A stretch of 42,513 nt of DNA, taken from NCBI GenBank assembly GCA_005888435.1, contig VAXO01000022.1, forward strand, positions 1 through 42,513, in the 5' to 3' direction. The stretch's first letter is position 1. Each line of letters begins with the position of its first letter. Source of the stretch: Actinomycetota bacterium. GTDB lineage: Bacteria > Actinomycetota > Thermoleophilia > Gaiellales > Gaiellaceae. Of the stretch, positions 10,955-15,595 are shown in pieces. A program made the position numbers and the translations under genes. The notes beneath the pieces were generated by a model. The model worked only from the letters and a program-made list of their open reading frames with translations. It made no database searches and was not told where the DNA came from.

Positions 10955-12496
10955 TCAGTGGAAGATCGCCACGATGGCGATCCCTACGATCGCGGTCGTG
11001 ATCCAGGCGATCTGCAGCGGTAACTGGAACGAGTGGTCGATCACGCGCTTGCCGAGCGTGGTCGTTCCGGTCGTGTCCGCCTCCGCGGCCGCGATCTGCG
11101 TGCCGTTGGCCGGCAGGAAGAGGACGCCCATCACCGCGGTCCACATCGCGATCATGTAGCCGGCGCCGATCCCGAGCGCCAGGCCTAACGGGACCATGGT
11201 TCTCGTCGCGGCCGACTGACTCGTGGTTAACGCCGCGACGAGGAAGATCGACACGGCGATCATGAACGGCCACTTCTGCGCCAGGTCGCCGAGCGCCGAG
11301 ACGATCGCGTCTTCGTTGTTGGCGATGAAGGTGTCCGCCATCCACGCGATGCCGAAGAGCGCGATCATCGCGACCATCCCCGACCGGAAGATCGACGTGT
11401 TCGGGATGTCGCCCGCGCCGACCTTGGCGAAGAGGACGATCAAGGCCGCTGCAGTGAGCATGAGCATCTGGATGATCGGGGTGACGGCGAGCGGTTCCGT
11501 GCCGCCGTCCTCCCCGGTGACGGTCGGGCGAATGCCCTCGAACAGGCCGAAGATGCAGATCAGGAGCACGGCGCCCAGGAAGATCGCGACGCTGCGCTTC
11601 GCGTACTGCTTGATCTCGATTGCGGCTGCTGACGGGGGTGCCTGCACCAGCCCCGCCTGGACGCGGCGCTGGTACTCCTCGTCCTGGTCGAGGTCCTTCC
11701 CGTGCCGCGCCATCACAAGGCACATGAGGAAGATGCCGATGATGCTCGCCGGGATCGTGATCAGCAGGACGTCGACGAGGTTGTAGTGGTAGACCTCGAC
11801 GAGCGGCAGAAGCGTCGCCATCGCCGCCGCAACGGGGCTCGAGGTAATGCCCATGGCCGACGCGACGGTCGACGCGGCAAGCGGTCGCTCGGGGCGGATC
11901 TTGTTCGCGTACGAGACCTCATTGATCACCGGGATGATCGAGAAGAAGGTGTTGCTCGTCCCGGTGAGGATGCAGAGCAGGTACGAGATGTACGGCGCGA
12001 AGTAGTTGATCGCCTTCGGTCTCGCTCGCAGGGCCCGGCTGGCGATGGAAACCATGTAGTCGACACCGCCGGCCGCCTGCATCGCCGCGGCGGCCGAGAT
12101 GACGGCGATGATGATCAGCATCGCATCGAACGGCGGCTCGCCGGGGTCGAGTTGGAAGCCGAAGACGAGGACGAGCGTCCCGACGCCGCCCCAGAGACCG
12201 AGGCCGATGCCGCCCGTGCGCACGCCGAGGGCGATGAAGCCGACGACGACCAGGCCCTCGATCGCGATCAGCACCCAGTCGCCGCCGCTCGTCGACGTCG
12301 ATGCCTCTGCGCCGGCTGCAGCTGGAGCCGGCGTGGTGCTCGTCGTCGTGGTCGCCGTGGTCGTGGTCGACGCGGTCGTCGTTGTCGTCGTTGCAGCAGG
12401 AGCTGCCGCAGAGCTGCCGCTCAGCGCGGAGGCGGCGGTGAAGCCGGCGGCCGTGAGCAGCGCGGCGGCGATTGCGATCGCGAGGAACCGCTTCAC
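10955..12496 (-). CDS. Dcu-type C4-dicarboxylate transporter with an unusual N-terminal extension
   Basis: 513 residues. From about residue 75 the sequence matches the DcuA/DcuB family: the stretch VRTGGIGLGLWGG, then PPFDAMLIIIAVI and AAGGVDYMV, followed by about ten further membrane segments. The first 70 residues are foreign to the family: a signal-like hydrophobic stretch (about 1-28) and then a Thr/Ala-rich low-complexity linker (TTTTTTASTTTTATTTT). It would exchange or take up succinate, fumarate, malate or aspartate. The GTG start overlaps the upstream stop by 4 bp, so it is the third gene of the pepD operon. Confidence 0.85.
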   Translation of the reverse strand: MKRFLAIAIAAALLTAAGFTAASALSGSSAAAPAATTTTTTASTTTTATTTTSTTPAPAAAGAEASTSTSGGDWVLIAIEGLVVVGFIALGVRTGGIGLGLWGGVGTLVLVFGFQLDPGEPPFDAMLIIIAVISAAAAMQAAGGVDYMVSIASRALRARPKAINYFAPYISYLLCILTGTSNTFFSIIPVINEVSYANKIRPERPLAASTVASAMGITSSPVAAAMATLLPLVEVYHYNLVDVLLITIPASIIGIFLMCLVMARHGKDLDQDEEYQRRVQAGLVQAPPSAAAIEIKQYAKRSVAIFLGAVLLICIFGLFEGIRPTVTGEDGGTEPLAVTPIIQMLMLTAAALIVLFAKVGAGDIPNTSIFRSGMVAMIALFGIAWMADTFIANNEDAIVSALGDLAQKWPFMIAVSIFLVAALTTSQSAATRTMVPLGLALGIGAGYMIAMWTAVMGVLFLPANGTQIAAAEADTTGTTTLGKRVIDHSFQLPLQIAWITTAIVGIAIVAIFH

Positions 12497-13098
12497 GGCT
12501 GCCCCTCCTTCAGCTCCTGGCAGTTCTTGCTGCCGTTGAGCGCGTCCGCGAGCGCCGGGTCGACGTTCGCCACCTGGTTGAACGCCGCCTGGCCGTCGAG
12601 GATGGAGCGGACGAGCGCGCTCGCCTGCGTCGCGACCAGCGCGTAGGCCTCACTCGTGGAGCCGGGCTTGTGCTTGAGCTCCTGCTTCGCGACCCGGAGG
12701 TTGTGCTCGGTGCGCTGCGCCCACGCGCGGAGCGTGGCCGATGCCTGTGCGCCGTTCGAGACATCTGGATTGCCTGCGCGCTTCAGGCCTTCCTGGAGCG
12801 TGTCCTCGGTGGCGCGGATCGCCCGGTCGATCGCCTCGCGCAGCGTGACCCGTCCTTCGACCGAGTCGCCGCTGCCGCCGTCGTGCTGGCGCGCGGCGTA
12901 GTTGTTGCGCTGGTACTCGTCGCGGATCGCGTGCAGGTCGCCCTCCCACGCGCCCACAGCGCCACATGCTGCATCCGCCCACGTCGACGCGCGGACGGTG
13001 TCGCCGGTATGGTCGCGCCCGTTGCTCGCGGCTGCGACGACGCCGCAGAGAACGACAACGCCGAGTACGACGACGAGGACGGCGACCCAGCCTCTCAT
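12493..13098 (-). CDS. Exported or membrane-anchored helical protein, unknown function
   Basis: 201 residues: one N-terminal hydrophobic segment (about 4-25, rich in V and L), then a hydrophilic, mostly helical domain. That domain has a cysteine near the start (ADAACGAV) and one near the end (SKNCQEL) that could form a disulfide. It is not a clear lipoprotein. I do not recognise the family. Its ATG overlaps the pepD stop by 4 bp and its stop overlaps the transporter start by 4 bp, so it is co-translated with both. It may assist the transporter outside the membrane. An open frame extends further upstream, but that part is the shadow of pepD. Confidence 0.75.
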   Translation of the reverse strand: MRGWVAVLVVVLGVVVLCGVVAAASNGRDHTGDTVRASTWADAACGAVGAWEGDLHAIRDEYQRNNYAARQHDGGSGDSVEGRVTLREAIDRAIRATEDTLQEGLKRAGNPDVSNGAQASATLRAWAQRTEHNLRVAKQELKHKPGSTSEAYALVATQASALVRSILDGQAAFNQVANVDPALADALNGSKNCQELKEGQP

Positions 13099-14564
13099 TG
13101 CTTGGACAGCTCGTCGACGGCGCCGACCAGGAGCCGCCAGAAGCGCTCGGCGGTCGGGATGCTCACACGCTCGTCGGGCGAGTGCGGCGCCTCGATCTGC
13201 GGGCCGAACGAGATCATGTCGAGGCCGGCGACCTTGTCGCCGATCACCGCCGTCTCGAGCCCCGCATGCACGGCGGTGACGATCGGCGGCTCGCCGAACG
13301 TCTGCTCGTACACGCGTTTCGTGGCGGCGAGCGCCGGTGAATCGAGGTTCGGTCTCCAGCCGCCGTAGTTGTGCTTCACCTCGAGCTCGCCTCGGCCGAG
13401 ACGAGCCGCCGCGTCGAGCGCCGCGATCACCTCCGGCAGAGCGGAGTCGTTCGACGAGCGGGAGAGGCTGTGCAGCGTCAGCCGGCCGTCTTCCGTGACC
13501 GCTTCGCCGAGCGAGGTGCTGGTCTCGACGAGGTCGTCGAAGTCGGGGCTCATGGCGAGCGGCCCGGTCGGGACGAGCGAGACGACGTCCAGCAACGTGG
13601 CTGTCCCGTCCTCGGTCCACGCGTCGATTGCCGTATCGGCCGCGTCGAGCTTCACGTTGACGCCCGAGTCCGTCTTCGCATAGGCGTCGCGGATCGTCGC
13701 CGTCGCCTCTTCGAGCGCGCTGCGGAGGTCGGCTTCCTTGTCCGCGGCGACGGAGACCACGGCAGACGCGTCGCGCGGGATCGCGTTCCGGCTCTTACCC
13801 CCGGCGAGCGAGACGAGCCGGAACGGCACCGCCTTGTGGGCCTCGCGCAGCGCGCGGCCGAGGACCTTGACGGCGTTCGAGCGACCGAGGGCGATGTTGC
13901 TTCCCGAATGCCCTCCGAGGCCGCCGCTCGCGGTGACGCGCAGGGTGGCCGCGCCAGAGTCGGTCGGCTCTCGCGGCTGCTCGATGTGGACCCACGTGTC
14001 GGTGCTGCCGGCGCAGCCGACGGTGAGCCGGCCGTCCTCTTCGCTGTCGAGGTTGATCAGGATCGAGCCGTCGACGAGCGCCGCATCGAGCCCGTTCGCA
14101 CCCTCGAGCCCGACCTCCTCGGCGACGGTCATCAGGAGCTGCAGCGGGCCGTGTGGGAGGGAGTCGTCCTCGACGAGCGCCATCATCGCCGCGATGGCGA
14201 CGCCGTCGTCGGCGCCGAGAGTGGTGCCGTTGGCCTTGAGCCAGTCGCCGGCGCGCATCAGCTCGATGCGGCCCTCGGCCGGATCGTTCGGGCTGTCCGG
14301 CTCGCGCTCGCAGACCATGTCGAGATGTCCCTGCAGCGTCACGGCCGGTGCGTTTTCGCGCCCTTCGGTCGCCGGCACGTCGATCACGAGGTTACGGGCG
14401 CTGTCCTCGCGCACAGGCAGCCCGTGGGCGTCCGCCCAGGCGCGCACGTGCTCGATGACCGGCTCCTCGGCCCGGGAGGGGCGCGCGATGCGGGTCAGCG
14501 CTTCGAAGTGATTCCAGAATGAACGCGGTTCGACTCCCGCGAGTACCGAAGTTTCCGTGGCCAT
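13095..14564 (-). CDS. pepD: Aminoacyl-histidine dipeptidase (M20 family)
   Basis: 489 residues, close to the E. coli enzyme (485). It hydrolyses Xaa-His and other dipeptides in the cytosol using two metal ions. Family motifs in order: LQGHLDMVCE (about 78-87, metal His and Asp), LGADDGVA (bridging Asp), TVAEEVGLEGA (catalytic and metal Glu), INLDSEE, GGLGGHSG in the lid domain, and HAGLE near the C-terminus. GGAGG on the minus strand 9 nt before the ATG fixes the start. It is the first gene of the three-gene operon. A leader with a possible terminator lies about 120 bp upstream. Confidence 0.93.
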   Translation of the reverse strand: MATETSVLAGVEPRSFWNHFEALTRIARPSRAEEPVIEHVRAWADAHGLPVREDSARNLVIDVPATEGRENAPAVTLQGHLDMVCEREPDSPNDPAEGRIELMRAGDWLKANGTTLGADDGVAIAAMMALVEDDSLPHGPLQLLMTVAEEVGLEGANGLDAALVDGSILINLDSEEDGRLTVGCAGSTDTWVHIEQPREPTDSGAATLRVTASGGLGGHSGSNIALGRSNAVKVLGRALREAHKAVPFRLVSLAGGKSRNAIPRDASAVVSVAADKEADLRSALEEATATIRDAYAKTDSGVNVKLDAADTAIDAWTEDGTATLLDVVSLVPTGPLAMSPDFDDLVETSTSLGEAVTEDGRLTLHSLSRSSNDSALPEVIAALDAAARLGRGELEVKHNYGGWRPNLDSPALAATKRVYEQTFGEPPIVTAVHAGLETAVIGDKVAGLDMISFGPQIEAPHSPDERVSIPTAERFWRLLVGAVDELSKQ

Positions 14565-14684
14565 GCAGATGCCCTCCAGGCGCTAGAGATCCCGCCGCAG
14601 GCGAGACGTTCTCGCATCGCCGGGGCGGCGTCAGTCACCCGCGAAGGATGAATCGGCGCCGTGCACGAAAGCCCGCGTGCCGCC

Positions 14685-14718
14685 AAATAAAACGGCCCGC
14701 CCTTTGGTGAACGGGCCG
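14685..14718 (-). terminator. Rho-independent terminator on the minus strand before pepD
   Basis: Stem CGGCCCG (14718-14712) with CGGGCCG (14699-14693) around a 12-nt loop, followed on the minus strand by TTTTATTT (14692-14685). The stem plus T-tract is the most canonical terminator on this strand. It lies about 120 bp upstream of the pepD ATG with no annotated gene ahead of it except a 59-codon frame. Confidence 0.65.
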
Positions 14719-14789
14719 CAGATGCGCCGCAGCGATTCCTTTAGGACAAGGGGAGAGTGTCATCCCAAAGGTCGGTCAGAGGCGCAACA
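14685..14789 (-). ncRNA. Candidate structured leader or small RNA upstream of pepD
   Basis: On the minus strand a TAAAAT -10 (14795-14800) is followed by about 100 nt that folds well. An outer stem pairs TGCGCC (14786-14781) with GGCGCA (14728-14723). A 9-bp stem pairs CCTTTGGGA (14771-14763) with TCCTAAAGG (14746-14738) with one G-U pair. A terminator ends the segment. The terminator loop contains CCAAAGG (14707-14701), which could instead pair with CCTTTGG of the earlier stem. That offers a switch between two folds. It could be an attenuator for the pepD operon or a free sRNA. I match it to no known class. Confidence 0.4.
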
Positions 14790-14951
14790 CCCGAATTTTA
14801 CCGCTCTTTGCCGGACGCCCGACGCAGATTTCCTCTCCCCGCGGCGGCCGTCCGGCCATCGAGGAATCGGCCTATGCGCGATCCGGCTTGAGTGTGCGCG
14901 CCGAGTCATGATGGCTCGCGATGCGCAGAGCTTGCGGCAACTCGTCCAGAA

Positions 14952-15131
14952 CTACGGCTTCGATGCTGTCGCGGGCACCGCCGCGAGCGCTGCAACGAGT
15001 TCGTCACGATGAAGCGTGAGTCGCCGGATTAGCCCATCCACTGCCGGATCGCGCAGCGCACGCAGGTCGACGATTGCCGTGGTGTACATCTGGATCAGCC
15101 CGAGCTGGGTCTTGGCCGGGAGATATGGCAC
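14952..15131 (-). CDS. Possible small protein (59 aa)
   Basis: A minus-strand frame from GTG at 15131 to TAG at 14952 with GC-rich third positions and a protein-like composition: an opening segment VPYLPAKTQLGLIQMYTT, then helical VDLRALRDP and IRRLTLHRDELVAAL. There is no good Shine-Dalgarno sequence and no recognised family. It may be a real small gene or the tail of a decayed one. The rest of the 14565-15268 interval holds the candidate leader RNA and nothing else I can support. Confidence 0.35.
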   Translation of the reverse strand: MPYLPAKTQLGLIQMYTTAIVDLRALRDPAVDGLIRRLTLHRDELVAALAAVPATASKP

Positions 15132-15268: not shown

Positions 15269-15595
15269 ATGCCCAACGCAGAGCGAGAGCTAAGAGCGGC
15301 GCAGAACCAGTTGATGTTTCGCTCCGTGAATGAGCGAATCAAAGAGCTCGGTGAGAAGGTGCTGAACGCCGTCTCAGAACTCGACTTCGCGTGCGAGTGC
15401 GACAACCCGGAGTGCCACAGCCCTATCACGATGACGATCGAGCAGTTCGACGCGATCGACCGCATGGACAATCGATTCATGGTGCTTCGAGGACACGAAG
15501 ACCTCGACGTCGAGGACGTCGTTGCTGAGGACGATGGCTATCTGATCGTCGCCAAGCGCGGCGCCGGCGCCGAGCTCGTCAAAGAGCTGTCCTAA
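15269..15595 (+). CDS. Conserved small acidic protein with a Cys cluster
   Basis: 108 residues, cytosolic. A helical, charged N-terminus (about 1-40, FRSVNERIKELGEKV) is followed by CECDNPECHSPI (three Cys and a His, a possible metal site), a helix around IEQFDAIDR and a beta-rich end (RFMVLRGHEDLDVEDVV ... YLIVAKR). I recall similar proteins in high-GC Gram-positive genomes but no function. The ATG start has only a weak GGGGG upstream. Confidence 0.7.
   Translation: MPNAERELRAAQNQLMFRSVNERIKELGEKVLNAVSELDFACECDNPECHSPITMTIEQFDAIDRMDNRFMVLRGHEDLDVEDVVAEDDGYLIVAKRGAGAELVKELS

Follow-up and report, generated by a model that had tools for sequence, protein, structure and literature searches.

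The stretch of DNA analysed here (the window, 42,513 nucleotides) corresponds to contig C78 in a metagenome-type assembly of 2.45 Mb, and its genome shares its family with Gaiella sp. FR_16. What is known of the Gaiellales, an order of actinobacteria, comes mostly from metagenomes, and no paper on the regulatory RNAs of this order was found in the literature. On the minus strand, positions 13095 to 14564 carry a gene for a pepD-like aminoacyl-histidine dipeptidase (TIGR01893, E 9e-143), followed by genes for a small predicted protein and for a transporter of the DcuA/DcuB type. Between the start of pepD at 14564 and a divergent gene for a 108-aa protein (15269-15595) lies an element, of which pepD is not a part, that has the features of a small RNA gene of some 175 nt on the minus strand (about 14862-14685; approximately 175-190 nt across its members). 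Read on that strand, it is composed of a promoter-like CTCAAG-N16-CCGAT block, a hairpin A, a linker, a closing stem P3 around a hairpin B, and a terminator-type hairpin that ends 127 nt before pepD. A first-pass annotation of the window had recognised two stems and a good terminator in this region, and these are present at 14786-14685. The boundary of 115 bp that it gave to the element is too short, and hairpin A (14856-14810) was missed.

Homologues of the element were found in two other genomes of the same genus. A single-sequence covariance model gave one confident match among 101 relatives, in genome G005 (E 3e-5), and plain alignment of the contig of G005 with the window reached 65 % over 238 nt (E 1e-11). 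This homology spans positions 14892-14680 of the window, its upstream limit lying well beyond the boundary of the first-pass annotation. A two-sequence covariance model subsequently yielded a third member in genome G009 (E 9.6e-5). The two homologues lie in the regions C115:3130-3360 of G005 and C178:3085-3320 of G009. A later model, consisting of the upstream and central part of the RNA and run against the complete set of 129 genomes from the order and against 399 from the class, scores the three members, from which it was itself built, at 1e-20 to 1e-25. The best other matches to this model, with an E-value of 0.05 within the order, of 0.016 within the class sample and a range of 0.016-0.07, lack the pair of loops described below. 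Beyond the 40 nearest genomes filters reduced the sensitivity of the search, so that more distant relatives may exist. Weak matches to the model (L079-L081, L088-L094, L098, L105-L107), which were examined at least in part, were discarded as chance because they lack the loop pair or are located in apparent coding sequence. BLAST with the 151-nt piece of the first-pass annotation returned chance 24-mers only (61 relatives, 399 class genomes), and plasmids and IMG/VR gave no match to the element. By these searches each member genome has one copy, while no copy could be detected in 7 of the 10 genomes of the genus, some of which are incomplete. A strong hairpin, CCGGCGGCACCCGCC..GGATGCCGCCGG (L105, 1558-1513, minus strand), was noticed in G146, a genome from a different family of the class. 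Its loop is of the GGAGAGGA type and resembles loop A (E 0.016); no C-rich partner loop was seen near it.

Hairpin A (14810..14856, minus strand) is kept in the three members and has a stem of 15-16 pairs, made up of an outer stem GCCGGACG/CGTCCGGC and an inner stem CCGCCGC/GCGTCGG with one C-U mismatch. The outer stem shows an A-U / G-U / G-C change across the three members, and the inner stem also changes. The linker AAAGAGCGGTAAAATTCGGGTGT (14787..14809) has AA.G.G.G.TA conserved in the three-member alignment. It contains, at 14800-14795, the letters TAAAAT that had been proposed as the promoter of the element; these are thus located inside a conserved part of the RNA, they have no recognisable -35 sequence, and a sigma-70 scan finds no site. 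Stem P3 is formed in the fold of this piece of the window by TGCGCC (14781..14786) and GGCGCA (14723..14728). Its counterparts are ACGCGTC/GGCGCAT, with one mismatch, in G005 and GCGTCGC/GTGACGC in G009, so that the sequence of P3 differs between members. P3 was recognised by eye, in the sequences and in the fold of each member, and P3 of G005 is absent from the lowest-energy fold. In G005 and G009 only, P3 also encloses a further small hairpin, the absence of which largely explains why the RNA of the window is shorter.

Hairpin B (14738..14771), the upstream stem of the first-pass annotation, has 12 bp. All 12 pairs are kept between the window and G005, although both bases differ in four of them and a single base in two, and the hairpin is also kept in G009, with one mismatch. 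A shuffle control for this covariation gave 35 of 500 and has little power, as it compares two rows only. The terminator hairpin GCGGCCCGTTCACCAAAGGGCGGGCCGT (14692..14719), obtained both by folding and by a terminator scan, is conserved with a different loop in each homologue (GTTTTCG in G005, AACCA in G009). It is followed at 14685..14691 by a U-rich tail. The window has a good one, whereas that of G005 is weak (TTCTCTA) and G009 has none (ACCATG).

The 108 nt of the minus strand from 14792 to 14685, a piece that had been picked for its stems, fold at -47.2 kcal/mol, against -34.4 +/- 3.5 kcal/mol for shuffled sequences (z -3.7; 0 of 200 dinucleotide shuffles as good). Full-length folds of the three members have z-scores of -2.7, -3.7 and -3.2. 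In each of them the fold of the sense strand is more stable than that of the antisense strand by 11-17 kcal/mol, and this gap, together with the G-U pairs, fixes the strand. A protein-coding reading was discarded, as every frame has a stop or a frameshift in at least one member. The sporadic distribution of the element and its unrelated insertion sites might point to a small non-autonomous mobile element or to some other conserved palindrome in the DNA that is not an RNA. Such an origin is improbable in view of the single copy per genome, the divergence of the members (about 65 %), the compensatory and G-U changes, and the strong strand asymmetry of folding. The conserved, co-varying structure expected of a stand-alone small RNA was found, in three sequences only, and the family of three is very probably a real structured RNA gene.

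Hairpins A and B present complementary loops. Loop A, the G-rich sequence GGGGAGAG (14833..14840), is invariant in the three members. Loop B, CACTCTCCCC (14750..14759), is C-rich and complementary to Shine-Dalgarno sequences; it is the same in the window and G005 despite the differing stem, and its end, CTCTCCCC, is identical in all three members. Among the 129 genomes of the order, CACTCTCCCCNNGTCC occurs only in the RNAs of the window genome and of G005, and the same holds for the 14 fixed bases of CACTCTCCCC-NN-GTCC. The pattern GGGGAGAG-N72..102-CTCTCCCC brought up two extra genomes, G029 and G031, which were rejected since they lack the hairpins and the pattern is close to chance level. 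In each of the three members the two loops are perfectly complementary over 8 bp, both sequences being located in an apical loop. For loops of this size and composition, the probability of such a complement by chance is about 0.0007. With a duplex energy of -17 to -17.8 kcal/mol, the sequences of loops A and B likely form a kissing contact. The helix is invariant in the three members, and covariation therefore speaks neither for nor against it. Dimerisation of two molecules through the loops is equally possible.

Loop A could also be of interest for a protein. Its GGA motifs (GGGGAGAGGA), displayed by all three members at the tip of a strong hairpin, might bind an RNA-binding protein of the CsrA type, with loop B regulating the access to them. 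Sequestering of a protein in this way is an improbable function, given that the RNA has one such hairpin only and that G005 has a single GGA.

The promoter-like block CTCAAG-N16-CCGAT (14866..14892, minus strand) has exactly the same 6-16-5 spacing in the window, G005 and G009, and in all three exactly 9 nt separate CCGAT from hairpin A. The window contains only one match to CTCAAG-N16-CCGAT, with 0.07 expected by chance. GCCGAT resembles the -10 sequence of sigma-28/WhiG-type promoters, a putative assignment. A second CTCAAG-N16-CCGAT is present in G009 (L104, 7057-7083, minus strand), perhaps as a promoter of the same type or perhaps by chance.

According to the first-pass annotation, the element would be a switchable leader of the pepD operon, in which CCTTTGG in the upstream stem pairs with the loop CCAAAGG of the terminator. 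The 7-nt complement does exist in the window. A match equal to it is held by 4 % of shuffled upstream sequences, forcing the pairing costs 14.4 kcal/mol relative to the terminator fold, and the terminator with CCAAAGG left unpaired still has -16.3 kcal/mol; the pairing would leave most of the terminator stem intact. CCTTTGG is for these reasons a poor antiterminator. The pairing is found in neither homologue, and the element itself is absent from the DNA before the orthologues of pepD. The closest of these, with identities of 78, 74 and 72 %, occur in G138 and G106, and no such element was found upstream of any of the three; in Gaiella sp. FR_16, the source of the 78 % orthologue, another gene stops about 20 bases short of pepD. 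A search of the genus beyond the window genome (nine genomes) gave no orthologue of pepD (no match at E <= 1e-40). The covariance searches returned homologues with compensatory changes, none of which stands before an orthologue of pepD. An attenuator of pepD that works by this pairing is, on these grounds, extremely unlikely. As the orthologues lack the element, the RNA does not belong to what is conserved in the pepD operon; very probably it is independent of pepD, and the operon should not carry an attenuator annotation.

The genes around the homologues are unrelated to those in the window and to each other. In G005 a peroxiredoxin gene is located upstream, and the start codon of the gene for an uncharacterised, unnamed protein of 209 aa follows about 19 nt downstream of the terminator hairpin. 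In G009 the element is flanked by a divergent Flp-pilin-like gene and by about 300 nt without a clear gene. Protein matches revealed no flanking gene shared by the window and the two homologue contigs, nor by these two contigs with each other. The divergent 108-aa gene is of no use as a marker of synteny, as it belongs to a multi-copy family. Such unrelated neighbours are to be expected of a free-standing RNA gene.

A cis-acting leader or riboswitch has nevertheless to be considered, in which a ligand or a protein would stabilise a tertiary fold of loops A and B, and this fold would decide on termination and control the downstream gene. In purine and cobalamin riboswitches, two hairpins with pairing loops are followed by a terminator, and conserved loop pairing of this tertiary type is common in riboswitches. 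The new RNA has the same arrangement of two hairpins with complementary loops and a terminator after them, the latter at 127 nt from pepD in the window and close to a start codon in G005. Unlike these riboswitches, it lacks an Rfam match, a consistent gene downstream (pepD, the unnamed 209-aa protein, and no clear gene over about 300 nt in G009) and a conserved antiterminator. With the pepD orthologues lacking the RNA as well, a leader of this kind seems unlikely.

The best reading is that of a small RNA gene which stands by itself, has a promoter-like block and an intrinsic terminator of its own, and is no terminator switch of pepD; about half of our confidence goes to it. That the gene is autonomous is suggested by the three homologues with their co-varying hairpins and invariant complementary loops, by the promoter-like block at fixed spacing, the promoter activity of which is putative, by the terminator, and by the unrelated neighbours. 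As judged from its sequence, it is a small structured RNA, uncatalogued before, in three related actinobacteria of one genus. A cmscan of the whole window against Rfam 15 at gathering thresholds detected two tRNAs only and no riboswitch or leader, and nothing relevant appeared at permissive thresholds in the region of the element or in the homologue loci. Together with the compensatory changes in the homologues, this bears out the earlier view of a structured RNA belonging to no known class. The family is new and its kind is known; the gate that the two loops would form is unusual, and putative.

The system nearest in kind is the actinobacterial 6C RNA (RF01066), the C-rich loops of which bind mRNAs, as stated in the title of Mai et al. 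(2019), cited in PMC9569102. It is likewise a free-standing actinobacterial small RNA with hairpins, a C-rich loop and a terminator. It is excluded as the family of the new RNA: no match to RF01066 was obtained at gathering in the window, at E 10 in positions 14560-15000, or at E 5 in the homologue loci. Where 6C RNA has two hairpins with C-rich loops, the three members have one C-rich (B) and one G-rich (A) loop, and the C-rich loop would be paired with the G-rich one in a molecule that also has a closing stem around hairpin B. The C-rich (UCCC) apical loops of staphylococcal RNAIII and of other small RNAs from Gram-positive bacteria can pair with Shine-Dalgarno sequences. Loop B would have the same ability, in an RNA that has no sequence relation to RNAIII-type RNAs, differs in size and organism, and carries a self-complementary partner loop.

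For the free-standing RNA a mechanism can be proposed. An alternative sigma factor would transcribe it from CTCAAG-N16-CCGAT, and the G-rich loop A would kiss the C-rich loop B and so mask it. When this contact opens, or when a better partner competes for it, loop B (CUCUCCCC) would be free to base-pair with target mRNAs at ribosome-binding sites of the GGGGAG type and to block their translation. We infer transcription, promoter type and function alike, and the anti-Shine-Dalgarno mechanism is tentative, with somewhat less than an even chance of being correct. If the contact between the loops does gate the anti-Shine-Dalgarno loop, we would have here a compact regulatory RNA that inhibits itself. 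A wider proposal is a new class of small RNAs with Shine-Dalgarno-like and anti-Shine-Dalgarno loops in one molecule, in which the kissing contact would switch the RNA from silent to mRNA-binding and back, with a ligand, a protein or a competing mRNA as the trigger; this is conceivable and rather doubtful. With its conserved loops, promoter-like block and exact coordinates, the three-member family is a ready test object.

The genes next to the RNA have some peculiarities of their own. The 108-aa protein (15269-15595, plus strand) contains a conserved Cys-rich motif (FACECDNPECHSPI) and has no Pfam or NCBIfam match. It belongs to an uncharacterised, expanded family present in 71 of 101 genomes of the bacterial family, with up to 13 copies per genome. 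At the DNA level, pepD and the transporter gene match their counterparts in Gaiella sp. FR_16 (L032) at 79-80 % identity, and in both genomes a small gene lies between the two. This cluster of pepD, small protein and DcuA/DcuB transporter (10955-14564, minus strand) has a distribution that is patchy, or it has been acquired horizontally. The DcuA/DcuB-type transporter (10955-12496, minus strand) carries an unusual N-terminal extension of about 60 residues that is rich in Thr, Ser and Ala, and its domain match begins at residue 82.
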